A DNA stretch of 32,751 nt from positions 1-32,751 of the forward strand of contig CAINLR010000183.1 of assembly GCA_903850425.1 (NCBI GenBank), written 5' to 3'. The stretch is from an uncultured Verrucomicrobia subdivision 3 bacterium (GTDB lineage: Bacteria > Verrucomicrobiota > Verrucomicrobiia > Limisphaerales > UBA11358). Below are positions 3,231 to 32,751 of the stretch, in pieces. A program made the translations under genes and the position numbers. Under the pieces are notes generated by a model. It was not told where the DNA came from. It saw only the letters and a program-made list of their open reading frames with translations, and did not search any database. Position 1 is the first letter of the stretch. Each line of letters starts with the position of its first letter.

Positions 3231-3657
3231 TATCGGCATCGCGCAAACCGGCGGCATAGGCATCGAACACGCGGCGCATTTCATCCCGAACGGTCCGAAA
3301 ACATTTTAGAATTTCCTCCTCGCTGCCGGTGGCTTTGGCGGGATCAAAGAACGGCCAGTGGTGGCGGTTCAATTGGCCGGGGAAAATCGGACATGCCTGA
3401 TCCGCATTGCCGCAGACGGTGATGACGGTGTGAACCGGCTGCGCCAGTAATTCGGTCAAAGGCTTTGAGCGGTGGCCGGAAATATCAATGCCCACTTCGG
3501 CCATGACTTTGATGGCGAGCGGATGGACATAGCCGGCGGGTTTCGAGCCGGCGCTCTGGACATTTGCGAGGTCGCCAAGCGCGGCGCGCAAAAACCCTTC
3601 GCCGATGTGGCTGCGGCAGGAGTTGCCCGTGCAGAGGATGAGGATGGTGGGTTTCAT
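3217..3657 (-). CDS. arsC: Arsenate reductase, thioredoxin-linked LMW-phosphatase type
   Basis: Reduces arsenate to arsenite in the cytoplasm so that Acr3 can export it. The product is 146 residues from ATG 3657. An in-frame ATG at 3681 lies inside an intergenic repeat and would add eight unrelated residues. The N-terminus ILILCTGNSCRSHIGEG is the Cys-x5-Arg phosphatase loop (C9, R15, with C14), and VCGNADQACP supplies C82 and C89, the redox pair of the Staphylococcus pI258-type ArsC. HWPFFDPAKATG and FRTVRDEM are further family signatures. It is the last gene of the ars cluster, about 100 bp after acr3, separated by an inverted heptamer array. Confidence 0.93.
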   Translation of the reverse strand: MKPTILILCTGNSCRSHIGEGFLRAALGDLANVQSAGSKPAGYVHPLAIKVMAEVGIDISGHRSKPLTELLAQPVHTVITVCGNADQACPIFPGQLNRHHWPFFDPAKATGSEEEILKCFRTVRDEMRRVFDAYAAGLRDADKKSG

Positions 3658-3669
3658 AATTTTGGGGGA

Positions 3670-3752
3670 AACATTGAACATTCAACAGCGAACGCTCAAT
3701 GACGGCTTTATGTGCAATTGGAGGTTGGGTGTTGAATGTTCAATGTTGGATG
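3670..3752. repeat. Inverted heptanucleotide array, copy A (acr3-arsC gap)
   Basis: The left arm is five 7-mers, AACATTG, AACATTC, AACAGCG, AACGCTC, AATGACG (3670-3704). The right arm is five 7-mers, TTGGAGG, TTGGGTG, TTGAATG, TTCAATG, TTGGATG (3718-3752). The arms contain a perfect 18-bp inverted repeat (3670-3687 with 3730-3747), so the RNA should fold. The spacer is 13 nt. Related arrays occur at 28727-28818 and 32261-32361. Confidence 0.85.
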
Positions 3753-12571: not shown

Positions 12572-12606
12572 ATTTGCGATTTCGGATTTTCGATTTACGA
12601 TTTCAA
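12572..12606. repeat. Heptanucleotide tandem array ATTTNCG in the sucD leader
   Basis: Five consecutive 7-mers: ATTTGCG, ATTTCGG, ATTTTCG, ATTTACG, ATTTCAA. The array starts 7 bp upstream of the sucD ATG (minus strand) and overlaps the stop codon of the nucleotidyltransferase-like gene. The unit length matches the AAC/TTG arrays elsewhere in the window, but the sequence differs. Confidence 0.7.
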
Positions 12607-28719: not shown

Positions 28720-28726
28720 TTTATGA

Positions 28727-28818
28727 AACATTCAACATTCAACGCCCAACGCCCAACGCCCAACGCCTGGGCGATGGCATACCTTGGATGTTTGGGGTTG
28801 AATGTTGAAGGTTGAATG
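28727..28818. repeat. Inverted heptanucleotide array, copy B (gspE-gspF gap)
   Basis: Left arm of six 7-mers: AACATTC twice, AACGCCC three times, AACGCCT (28727-28768). A 15-nt spacer is followed by a right arm of TTGGATG, TTTGGGG, TTGAATG, TTGAAGG, TTGAATG (28784-28818). The GAATGTT/AACATTC parts pair. It fills the whole gspE-gspF gap and ends 13 bp before the gspF ATG. Confidence 0.85.
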
Positions 28819-28831
28819 TTCTGCTGAACCC

Positions 28832-30079
28832 ATGCCCTCCTTTTCCTATCGCGCGTTGAAGGCCGACGGCAAAATTGCCGAGGGCGTGCTGGATGCCGCC
28901 GGTCGCCCGGATGCGTTGCGGCAAATGGAGACGCTGGGGTTGCGGCCGGTGAATCTTTCGGAAAAGGCGTCCGCACCGGCCAAGAACGGAGCCGCCTCGA
29001 CGGATGCGCTGGGAAGTTTTTCGCTTAAGTTCGCGTCTAAAAAAGTCTCGGCCAAGGAACTCCAGAATTTCACGCGGCTGCTTTCCAGTCTGCTTGCGGC
29101 GGGCGTGCCGCTGAGCCGTGCGCTGGTGATTTTGCAGAAGGAAGCCTCTTCGCCGGTGGCGCGCGCCAAGTGGAAAGAAGTCCATGGCCTCGTCGTGGAC
29201 GGACTTTCCCTCACGGATTCGATGGCGAAATCGCCCGAGACTTTTCCTCGGGTTTACACCGCGATGGTGGAGGCGGGCGAGACCGGCGGTTTTCTTGACG
29301 TGGTGCTGGCGCAGATTGCGGAATTTCAATCGCGCGAAAAGGAACTGAAATCCAAAGTGCTGACCGCGATGCTGTATCCCTGCATCTTGATGGTGCTGGC
29401 GCTGGCGATTCTGGTTCTGCTGCTGACGTTTTTCATTCCCAAATTCCAGGCCATCTTCAACAACATGCACAGCGCGTTGCCGCTGATCACGCAGGTCATC
29501 ATCGGCGCGAGCCATCTCATCCGCTCGTATGGATTGGTTGTCGGAGCGGTCCTGATCGGAGTCTTCGCACTGTTGCGAACCTGGTTCACCTCTGAAAAAG
29601 GCCGGCGCATGTGGGAAGGGCTCATCTTGAAACTGCCTTTGGTGGGTCCGCTCATCGCGCAATTCGCCATGGCGCGCTTCTGCCGGATGCTCGGCACTTT
29701 GATCGGCGCGGGCGTGCCGCTGGTGCAGGGCCTCACGGTCGCGCGGCGATCCATCGGTAACCAAATTCTCGTGGACGCCGTCACGGCGTCCATCGAGCGC
29801 GTGCAACAGGGCGGGCGGCTCGGGCAAAGCCTCGCGGATTGCCGGACGCTGTTTCCCGGTTCGGTGCTGGAGATGATTTCGGTGGCGGAAGAAAGCGGTC
29901 GGCTGGACGGCGAATTAGTCCGTATCGCGCTGGAAACGGAAGCCGATCTGGACCGCAATTTGAAAACCGCCGTGGCCTTTGCCGAGCCGCTGCTGCTATT
30001 CCTAATTGCCGGTTTCATCGGCACCATTTTCATCGGCATGTTGCTGCCGGTGCTGACCATGAGCACAAACATCAAATAA
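28832..30079 (+). CDS. gspF: Type II secretion inner-membrane platform protein GspF
   Basis: A polytopic inner-membrane protein on which GspE acts. ATG 28832 (MPSFSYRALKADGKIAEGVL) is the canonical N-terminus; an in-frame start at 28802 lies in the upstream repeat. 415 residues with two T2SSF domains: the first about 80-205 (FTRLLSSLLAAGVPLSRAL), the second about 280-405 (FCRMLGTLIGAGVPLVQGL). Three transmembrane segments follow the usual positions, near 180-205, 225-250 and 385-410. EETGGFLD-type signatures appear as GETGGFLDVV and EESGRLDGEL. Confidence 0.94.
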   Translation: MPSFSYRALKADGKIAEGVLDAAGRPDALRQMETLGLRPVNLSEKASAPAKNGAASTDALGSFSLKFASKKVSAKELQNFTRLLSSLLAAGVPLSRALVILQKEASSPVARAKWKEVHGLVVDGLSLTDSMAKSPETFPRVYTAMVEAGETGGFLDVVLAQIAEFQSREKELKSKVLTAMLYPCILMVLALAILVLLLTFFIPKFQAIFNNMHSALPLITQVIIGASHLIRSYGLVVGAVLIGVFALLRTWFTSEKGRRMWEGLILKLPLVGPLIAQFAMARFCRMLGTLIGAGVPLVQGLTVARRSIGNQILVDAVTASIERVQQGGRLGQSLADCRTLFPGSVLEMISVAEESGRLDGELVRIALETEADLDRNLKTAVAFAEPLLLFLIAGFIGTIFIGMLLPVLTMSTNIK

Positions 30080-31092: not shown

Positions 31093-31504
31093 AGGTCGGG
31101 GCGGCGCGCGGCATCCCTGCCAAGCGGCGTTCACGCTGGCGGAAGTGATGGCGGCGCTGCTGTTTCTGGCCATCGTGATTCCGACGGCGGTGGAGGCCCT
31201 GCAGATCGCCAGCCGCGCCGGCGAAGTTGCCGCACGCAAAGGTGGGGCCGCCCGGATCGCCGATCGGGTTTTGAACGAGAGTCTGGTGATGACGAATTGG
31301 AATCACGGCGCGCAGAGCGGCACGGCCACGGAGAATGGAATTGAATACAAGTGGACGTTGAAAAGTCAAAGCTGGCCGGCGCAGTCGGCCTTGTCGGTCG
31401 TGACGGCGGAAGTGACGTTTTCTGCGCAGGGCAGAGATTACTCGGTGACTTTGAATACGCTGGCCAGTCCGACGACATCGGCGACCGGCCTAAACACGCA
31501 ATAG
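31067..31504 (+). CDS. gspI: Minor pseudopilin GspI
   Basis: 145 residues from ATG 31067 within the end of gspH; a longer frame (31016) would deepen the overlap. The prepilin motif is QAAFTLAEVMAALLFLAIVI, again with Ala before the cleavage site and Glu at +5. The soluble part, with RIADRVLNESLV and GIEYKWTLKSQSW, matches the small GspI fold. The stop TAG 31502-31504 overlaps the gspJ GTG by one base. Confidence 0.82.
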   Translation: MRFATQKDKGRGGARHPCQAAFTLAEVMAALLFLAIVIPTAVEALQIASRAGEVAARKGGAARIADRVLNESLVMTNWNHGAQSGTATENGIEYKWTLKSQSWPAQSALSVVTAEVTFSAQGRDYSVTLNTLASPTTSATGLNTQ

Positions 31505-32256
31505 TGAAAATCGAACCAACATTGGAACGTCGGGCCTGGCCCGGCACGCAGTCGCGCCCAGCCCGGCTGGGCGCGGCGGGATTCACGCTGATCGAGATGA
31601 TGCTCGCCATCGGCGTCTCATCCATCGTGCTGATCGCGGTGAGCGCCGCGCTGTTCACCTCGCTGCACTTGCGCGCCGGGACAACGGCCGTGGTGGACGC
31701 GGCCACGCCGATTGACCAGACCTGCGCTTTTTTGCGCCGCGATTTGCAGTGCCTCGTCTCGCCCACGAACGGCACGACCAAGATATTATCCGGCGGTTTT
31801 CGCGTCGGCACCATCAGCAGCGTCGGCGTCAGCGATCCGGTGGCTGTGGAAATGTTCACCGCCACCGGCGCGTTGAGCGACAGCCCCAGCCAGCCGTGGG
31901 GCGACGTCCAGCGCGTGACGTATGAATTGAAAAATGCCGCCGACCGTTCCGCGACCGGCAAGGATCTGGTGCGCAGTGTGACGCGGAATTTATTGTCGGT
32001 GAGCACGCCCGACGTGACCGACCAGTTGATGCTGAGCGGCGTGGCGAGCGTGAAGTTTTCCGGTTATGACGGCGCGCAATGGCAGCCCACTTGGGACACC
32101 ACGGACGTGATGTCCGCAAATACAAACCTGCCGCTCGCCGTGCGCGTGGAAATCCTGATGGCCGGCGACAATGCAACGGCGGAGCCGATTCAAATGGTGG
32201 TGCCGATTGATGCCGTGGCGCGAACGAACATGGTGCTGACGACCACTGGTGGTTGA
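31504..32256 (+). CDS. gspJ: Minor pseudopilin GspJ
   Basis: 250 residues from GTG 31504, which overlaps the gspI stop by one base; no in-frame ATG lies in a sensible place. The prepilin motif is LGAAGFTLIEMMLAIGVSSI with Gly before the cleavage and Glu at +5. The soluble domain has DQTCAFLRRDLQCLVSP, typical of the 'F-x-R-D-L' helix of GspJ. It is followed by gspK within two bases, through copy C of the heptamer array. Confidence 0.87.
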   Translation: MKIEPTLERRAWPGTQSRPARLGAAGFTLIEMMLAIGVSSIVLIAVSAALFTSLHLRAGTTAVVDAATPIDQTCAFLRRDLQCLVSPTNGTTKILSGGFRVGTISSVGVSDPVAVEMFTATGALSDSPSQPWGDVQRVTYELKNAADRSATGKDLVRSVTRNLLSVSTPDVTDQLMLSGVASVKFSGYDGAQWQPTWDTTDVMSANTNLPLAVRVEILMAGDNATAEPIQMVVPIDAVARTNMVLTTTGG

Positions 32257-32257
32257 A

Positions 32258-32751
32258 ATGAACATTCAACATCGAACAACCAACATCGAACAGCCAACAC
32301 CCAATGGTGCCGGGCGTCCGGGGTCATTGGATGTTGGCTGTTCGATGTTCGATGTTGGCTGTTTCCGCCGTTCCCGCCGTTCTGAAAAGGGCTCGGTGCT
32401 CATCATCGTGCTTTGGGTGTGCATCGGGCTGGTGAGCATCGCGCTCTATTTCGCCAATTCGATGACCTACGAATTGCGCGCGGCCGACAACCGGGTCAGC
32501 GGCATCGCGGCGGACCAGGCCATCGAGGGCGCGGCGCGCTACGTCGGTTATGTGCTGCAAAATTTCGCGACGAACGGCGCGATGCCGGACCTCACGCAAT
32601 ACACCGCCGCCGGCCTGGCGATCGGCGATGCGCACGTCTGGCTGATCGGTCGCGACCCGACAGGCGAAAACTCCAGCGAACCTTATTTCAGCCTGATTGA
32701 TGAAGCGTCCAAATTAAACCTGAACACCGCCAACACCAACACGCTGTCGTA
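32258..32751 (+). CDS. gspK: Minor pseudopilin GspK, 5' part (partial)
   Basis: Runs off the right edge; 164 residues are visible. ATG 32258 lies one base after the gspJ stop, but its first 34-36 residues are translated from a heptamer-repeat array (MNIQHRTTNIEQPTPNGAG). The alternative ATG 32345 gives MFDVGCFRRSRRSEKGSVLI, a better-sized basic leader before the pseudopilin helix. Cleavage at KG/SVLIIVLWVCIGLV, without Glu at +5, is normal for GspK. YELRAADNRV and the later DEASKLNLNTANTN are conserved GspK signatures. It probably caps the pseudopilus with GspI and GspJ. Confidence 0.88.
   Translation, partial: MNIQHRTTNIEQPTPNGAGRPGSLDVGCSMFDVGCFRRSRRSEKGSVLIIVLWVCIGLVSIALYFANSMTYELRAADNRVSGIAADQAIEGAARYVGYVLQNFATNGAMPDLTQYTAAGLAIGDAHVWLIGRDPTGENSSEPYFSLIDEASKLNLNTANTNTLS
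32261..32361. repeat. Inverted heptanucleotide array, copy C (gspJ-gspK, inside the gspK frame)
   Basis: Left arm of six 7-mers: AACATTC, AACATCG, AACAACC, AACATCG, AACAGCC, AACACCC (32261-32302). A 24-nt spacer is followed by a right arm of TTGGATG, TTGGCTG, TTCGATG, TTCGATG, TTGGCTG (32327-32361). It lies in frame in the gspK 5' end, contributing residues about 2-35 if the first ATG is used. Confidence 0.85.

Follow-up and report, generated by a model that had tools for sequence, protein, structure and literature searches.

The gspJ-gspK junction

Where does GspK begin, and does the heptamer array that lies between gspJ and the conserved part of GspK belong to the protein? In the window, i.e., the whole 32,751-nt stretch of DNA that was analysed, gspJ extends from 31504 to 32256 on the plus strand, with an inferred GTG start at 31504 and a TGA stop codon at 32254-32256; its ORF (31351-32253) matches the Pfam profiles T2SSJ and N_methyl with 44.4 and 24 bits, respectively. 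If the GTG is used, the leader of GspJ is 26 aa long; the gspJ leader region (31504-31590) contains two short GC palindromes, GGGCCTGGCCC and GCGCCCAGCCCGGCTGGGCGC. The following gene, gspK, runs on the plus strand from 32258 to 32751, where it is cut by the window end; on the contig, the entire gene spans 32258-33727, with its stop codon at 33725-33727, and its complete ORF encodes 489 aa. The protein is 59-76% identical to its orthologues in the genus and matches NCBIfam T2SS_GspK (E 3e-13, 49.9 bits, below the cut-off of 130) and Pfam T2SSK (23.1 bits, marginally below the cut-off of 24.2). Its putative assignment as GspK is based on its location after gspJ, itself recognised by the T2SSJ match, in the gsp operon, together with the weak profile match.

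A class III signal peptide consists of a hydrophilic leader ending in Gly or Ala, followed by about 20 hydrophobic residues. By eye, GspK presents such a signal, with ...RRSRRSEKG immediately before SVLIIVLWVCIGLVSIALYFA. The most likely start codon, ATG 32258-32260 on the plus strand, is one base past the end of the gspJ TGA (32256), at the same site as in array-less orthologues. A start at this position would give a 45-aa prepilin leader (coding sequence 32258-32392, plus strand) that ends in Gly before SVLIIVLW, where the class III rule predicts cleavage. The sequence-only reading of this DNA had stated that the frame from ATG 32258 stays open through the array into GspK, adding about 35 residues before RRSRRSEKG, and that a second in-frame start, ATG 32345, lies inside a TTCGATG unit. 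The ORF reading bears out both the open frame and the position of the second ATG; the extension is likewise present, its exact length being 36 residues.

A palindromic element built from heptamers

The inversion of the array, with two opposed arms, is the feature that had been missing from that reading. The 104-bp gspK array (32260-32363; the detector called 32260-32357, while the right arm reaches 32363) is an inverted repeat of approximately five plus five heptamers. On the plus strand, it comprises a left arm of [CG]AACNNY-type heptamers (32261-32304), a variable loop that separates both arms (32305-32326), and a complementary right arm of inverted heptamers of the GGATGTT type (32327-32363). 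Five units per arm were counted in 44 of 58 elements for the left arm and in 42 of 58 for the right arm. The predicted fold of the gspK array has a minimum free energy of -72.4 kcal/mol (z -6.5, 200 dinucleotide shuffles); its stem starts right at ATG 32258 and includes ATG 32345. At least 41 matches to the array are present in its own genome (both strands, query copy included), a lower bound given that scoring covered 40 of 64 candidates and that neither of the other two window copies is included. Because of this fold and these matches, the gspK array is a non-chance sequence. It is a dispersed palindromic repeat, with element matches in 25 of the 59 genomes searched (own included).

Cyanobacterial STRRs are heptanucleotide arrays with a 7-base period that are mostly intergenic. 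A plain heptanucleotide STRR was considered for the gspK array and rejected, as the arms are inverted and the units are variable rather than head-to-tail copies of one heptamer. Other short repeats were seen in passing. In the window, a short tandem array of ATTTCCG-like heptamers (12572-12604) resembles a unit family that occurs in PilX-like leaders of relatives. A hairpin of a very different heptamer (ATGAA / TTCAT type) occupies a tandem gap elsewhere in the same genome (L164:7790-7893), and a separate palindromic family (GGAGTTCCGCC...) was found in the gspK leader of G030 (L101), in L132, and as 15 exact matches in G010.

Orthologous junctions

We compared 52 gspJ-gspK junctions, of which 41 come from genomes of the genus (the genome of the window among them), 9 from the order, and 2 from further contig records. 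They cover 41 of the 42 genomes of the genus, G062 lacking the GspK N-terminus, and nine of 36 genomes from outside it in which GspK was matched. Six of 26 GspK loci entered an early comparison of starts, several of the others being genomes already counted, and four duplicate junctions with identical leaders (x70, x72, x79 and x92) were dropped from the tree, coding-copy, frame and period counts.

Thirty-three of the 52 junctions are short: the GspK start codon lies between -4 and +13 nt relative to the gspJ stop, and the leader has 14-20 aa, as in MKLNPHILEHDARRENA preceding SVLIIVLW. The remaining 19 are long, with 82-316 nt. CAACATC-type heptamer arrays occupy eight of them (G000, which is the genome of the window, G003, G005, G009, G017, G021, G022 and G031), and three more appear heptameric by eye (G015, a stub, G035 and G090); other palindromes are found in remaining long junctions, e.g., those of G030, G045 and G073. 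Period 7 is the strongest among periods 4-12 in 12 of the 19 long junctions versus 2 of the 33 short ones. The fold is clearly better than that of shuffled sequences (z -2.9 or lower) in 15 of the 19 long junctions and, among the short ones, in G064 only; no clear advantage over shuffles is seen for the inserts of G063, G069, G094 and x69, indicating that not all inserts are palindromic. Orthologous leaders terminate in G, A or, in G043, S. Leaders of approximately 105 (L105, in G045) and 118 codons (L206, in G043) were also noted; by eye, each contains several different palindromes, and each is still open and in frame. The position of the element, its inverted structure, its recurrence, the conservation of the frame described below and the existence of array-less orthologues are direct observations.

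The GspK start codon

In all 19 long junctions, an in-frame start codon is located beside the gspJ stop, -4 to +12 nt from it (ATG in 18, TTG/GTG in G035), and the frame from this start is open across the whole insert, with leaders of 27-105 aa. The other two frames, with the first two codons skipped, are open in 11 of 38 cases, although these counts overstate the independence of the junctions, given shared descent and the similar inserts in G003, G005, G009 and G017 and in G021 and G022. Because the adjacent start is in frame and open in every long junction, as opposed to the other frames, ATG 32258 is the likely start of GspK and the array is likely coding sequence inside the prepilin leader. 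By inspection, the units of the left arm rarely yield stop triplets, and an open frame over this arm therefore says little.

The alternative is that GspK starts inside the right arm, at ATG 32345 (32345-32347, plus strand) or at TTG in relatives, with a leader of 11-16 aa, the left part being untranslated and the upstream openness being due to chance. An in-array ATG or TTG that leaves a leader of this size is present in G000, G003, G005, G009, G017, G021 and G022, so that right-arm TTG codons could begin a short leader in several relatives, and a PilX-like gene of the same genome has its sole in-frame ATG/GTG within its array. However, upstream of the last position at which an internal start is possible, the gspK frame is free of stop codons in 19 of 19 cases and the other frames in 19 of 38, and the start beside gspJ is in frame in every long junction. 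Moreover, the sole in-array start of G031 is a TTG that leaves 23 aa, x69 has none, and ATG 32345 is buried in the predicted stem. We consider a start inside the right arm very unlikely, and ATG 32345, which is not conserved, was judged not to be the main start. The earlier suggestion that the array supplies the start of GspK is not supported, as a comparable in-array ATG is found in only two of the seven other CAACATC-type genomes (G009 and G017). GGATGTT-type units carry one ATG per repeat, so annotated starts can land inside arrays, which is a warning for annotators.

In orthologues without an array, GspK begins at the position that corresponds to ATG 32258, and the frame is kept in all 19 long junctions. 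These results support the main proposal of the sequence-only reading, namely that translation of the array extends GspK at its N-terminus, very probably from ATG 32258. That reading had also held that orthologues with no extension would speak against translation; such orthologues were found, but they simply show an empty leader.

When the heptamer state, present in 11 rows, is mapped on a tree built from 52 GspK proteins, at least nine changes are required, gains and losses being undistinguished, versus 10.1 on average with shuffled labels; the state is therefore hardly clustered. Sister rows differ, as G000 has an array and G027 has none. The G005 array is similar to the arrays of G003 and G017 despite their distance on the tree; some arrays may therefore be ancient and have been lost many times, or may have been transferred. 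At gspK, the insertion is in frame, the gene is otherwise intact, and the insert is absent from close relatives.

An insert inside a putatively cleaved leader

Based on these comparisons, we consider it highly probable that a dispersed palindrome lies just inside the gspK frame and forms part of a 45-aa leader that is made from ATG 32258 onwards and cleaved off, leaving the mature pseudopilin unchanged. Translation, cleavage, the mobility of the element, and tolerance as the reason for its recurrence are the steps that we infer. The element would tend to settle a few bases past a stop codon between co-directional genes; because the gspK start abuts the gspJ stop, it would here come to lie within the gspK reading frame, in the variable central part of the prepilin leader. 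Translation from ATG 32258 would yield a 45-aa leader that retains its Arg-rich tail and terminal Gly, and the prepilin peptidase would cut after this Gly, so that the mature pseudopilin would be unaltered. The leader would be free to drift in length and sequence, provided that it stays in frame and retains its Gly and its basic residues. Since the leader is removed and the mature pseudopilin remains the same, repeated gain and loss of inserts would be tolerated as well, again on condition that the frame is preserved. Initiation at ATG 32258 probably needs ribosomes that are finishing gspJ; such translational coupling must be assumed because a stem starting at the ATG would hinder initiation.

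In the sections of two reviews that deal with prepilin processing, the leader is described as cytoplasmic and as removed by the prepilin peptidase after the terminal Gly (PMC10191384, PMC4471445). The leader lengths given there are 6-26 residues in the 2014 review (PMC4471445), while the later one mentions very long prepilin leaders in S. sanguinis (PMC10191384). The GspK leaders of 45 to 105 residues exceed the range of the 2014 review. Together with the short ones, they form a natural set of leader variants (14 to 105 residues) for probing what the prepilin peptidase and membrane targeting need.

Location of the copies

Besides the gspK element, the window contains two further copies, at 28726-28821 and 3676-3748; with the detector call at 32260-32357, there are three elements in 33 kb, two of them within the gsp gene cluster. 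This is a local clustering, as the same detector picked up a single element and two isolated arms in the 400 kb of control sequence outside the window. The control comprised 433 kb of the same genome, made up of the window and twenty 20-kb stretches, taken from contigs with known copies at positions that were not chosen by content, though the list of copies was visible. A sequence-blind scan of these 433 kb for period-7 hairpins gave two matches, one of them the L164 hairpin with its different heptamer family, its criteria being too strict to serve as a survey.

The copy at 28726-28821 lies between the stop codon of the upstream gene (28719) and the inferred start of gspF (28832), and the copy at 3676-3748 lies upstream of arsC (minus strand, inferred start 3657). 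The sequence-only reading had drawn a parallel between gspK and these two genes, pointing to ATG 3681 at arsC and to an upstream frame at 28802 for gspF. An ATG exists at both positions; both copies are, however, located between genes, with the array preceding the gene in each case, and the parallel is not supported. In the frame from ATG 3681, the ArsC phosphatase domain starts at residue 13, and an internal start (MKPT) is found at residue 9, i.e., position 3657, four residues before the domain. For GspF, we take the start to be MPSFSY at 28832, judging from known GspF N-termini, which is 10 nt past the end of the array. Translated extensions of ArsC and GspF were rejected, as the arrays lie upstream of the inferred gene starts.

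In total, 60 distinct elements were classed, 7 at gspK and 53 elsewhere. Fifty of the 53 are located between co-directional genes and two between convergent genes, while one could not be classified. They start a median of 9 nt (interquartile range 6-15) past the upstream stop codon and end a median of 16 nt ahead of the next start; the genes were called with a purpose-made codon-usage script, and individual gaps may be wrong. Tandem pairs thus flank 50 of the 52 classifiable non-gspK copies, compared with 238 of 309 control gene pairs (gaps up to 600), the elements coming from several genomes and being selected for similarity to the gspK copy, and the control pairs coming from a single genome.

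Possible function and origin of the element

The hairpin could be a selected intercistronic regulator, e.g., one that reduces the amount of GspK compared with GspJ, or a processing site for RNase III, its coding capacity being incidental. The strong fold of the gspK array, the 15 long junctions that fold better than shuffles and the occupation of short tandem gaps by the copies are consistent with this role. On the other hand, presence of the array differs between sister rows, and different families of inserts occupy one site, which looks like tolerance. The arms of an element match one another little better than shuffled arms do (72% versus 66%, in a shuffle that mixed genomes), and no Rfam family reached its gathering score anywhere in the window. 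Overall, a regulatory role appears unlikely to be the explanation. Arm covariation as a proof of selected pairing was set aside, since the unit preference of each genome could explain the difference between 72% and 66%.

Concerning its origin, the element is dispersed, palindromic, approximately 100 bp long and present in many copies, as expected of a miniature element moved by a transposase (a REP/REPIN moved by RAYT, or a MITE), and Y1_Tnp genes occur in 52 of the 59 genomes (own included). Nevertheless, one architecture is built from several different heptamer sequences, and the two distributions diverge: G053 (89% complete) has 23 element matches and no Y1_Tnp match, while G006 has five Y1_Tnp matches and no element match. 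Inspection by eye recognised neither a GTAG/CGTC tag nor a target duplication at the elements; inverted arms, the other mark of a MITE, are present. No transposase could be tied to the element, and we regard this origin as distinctly improbable.

Comparison with known repeats

The gspK element appears closest to protein-coding palindromic elements such as the Rickettsia RPE and the Yersinia YPAL. RPEs are palindromic repeats of approximately 105-150 bp (Ogata et al. 2000, 2002), which, in the parts of the literature that describe them, are dispersed stem-loop palindromes, many of them in frame inside protein genes (PMC10969869, PMC2229807, PMC2996958). By the same descriptions, they occur in unrelated metabolic genes, with nearly half of the copies in ORFs and in unstructured segments of globular proteins. 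The elements reported here, which were compared with RPEs by description, differ in being built from heptamers of several sequences, in lying mostly between tandem genes and, where coding, in belonging to N-terminal leaders. The YPAL / RU-2 palindromes of Yersinia, as summarised by Delihas in 2007, also contribute, by in-frame fusion, a part of the signal peptide predicted for putative exported proteins (PMC2229807). That account concerns some cases and one named locus, whereas the insertion described here recurs in one gene across many species, involves several gene families, and is heptamer-built.

The TAACTGA arrays of Beggiatoaceae share period 7, are mostly intergenic, and often stand right before start codons; according to the sections on these arrays, they are direct repeats of one unit, with one inverted set reported, unlike the inverted arms of approximately five variable units with a loop described here (PMC4679880). 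REPs and REPINs resemble the element as short dispersed palindromes (PMC3733652, PMC3116915), and GTAG-tagged REPs have been reported in PVC bacteria (O. terrae), as noted in one of these sources (PMC3733652). The present elements differ in showing no GTAG/CGTC tag by eye and no detectable link to Y1 transposase genes. Among the matches listed in the open-access literature, no report of these Verrucomicrobia heptamers or of repeats in prepilin leaders was found.

Putative coding copies in other genes

A second prepilin-like gene with arrays in its leader is the PilX-like gene of G000:C178, which is preceded by two genes with prepilin-like N-termini; its product has no Pfam match in its first 229 aa and no NCBIfam match over 896 aa. 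A match to this protein is present in 50 genomes, and 30 orthologous loci, among the matches listed, were surveyed. Twenty-four of the 30 junctions have at least 80 nt; among periods 4-12, period 7 ranks first in 21 of these, their leaders contain several heptamer families, and an in-frame start is found beside the upstream stop in 22. The exceptions are G012 and the copy of the window's own genome (L178/L034, G000:C178 ~42670-42815), in which the stop-adjacent ATG is out of frame and the only in-frame ATG/GTG is in the array; this copy may reflect a frameshift, an assembly error or a true array-supplied start.

Outside prepilin genes, 45 tandem copies were considered, after removal of seven gspK loci, of L034 (PilX-like) and of four elements whose starts were ambiguous. 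In 20 of the 45, no stop codon interrupts the downstream frame across the element, but only three of the 45 have an ATG or GTG in this frame next to the upstream stop, and all three encode N-termini that, by eye, resemble signal peptides. In these loci (L145:11968-12056, L152:2592-2681 and L026:3043-3141), the element is seemingly translated as the n-region, and partly the h-region, of a putative Sec signal peptide; one of the three matches SCO1/SenC. One of these signal-peptide-like families has array-like leaders in G031 (by the detector) and in G015 and G005 (by eye), and is array-free in G007, G000 and G001, the G010 copy being cut by the contig end.

A broader and more tentative idea, to which we give somewhat less than even weight, is that the Limisphaerales heptamer palindromes form a distinct class that favours stop/start junctions of co-transcribed genes and persists in coding regions only if the added peptide is cut away, prepilin leaders and signal-peptide n-regions being safe harbours that are repeatedly rebuilt from several unrelated heptamer families. 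The rule it suggests is that palindromic repeats enter genes harmlessly where the product is cut off. By eye, some other pseudopilin leaders of relatives also appear to hold arrays.
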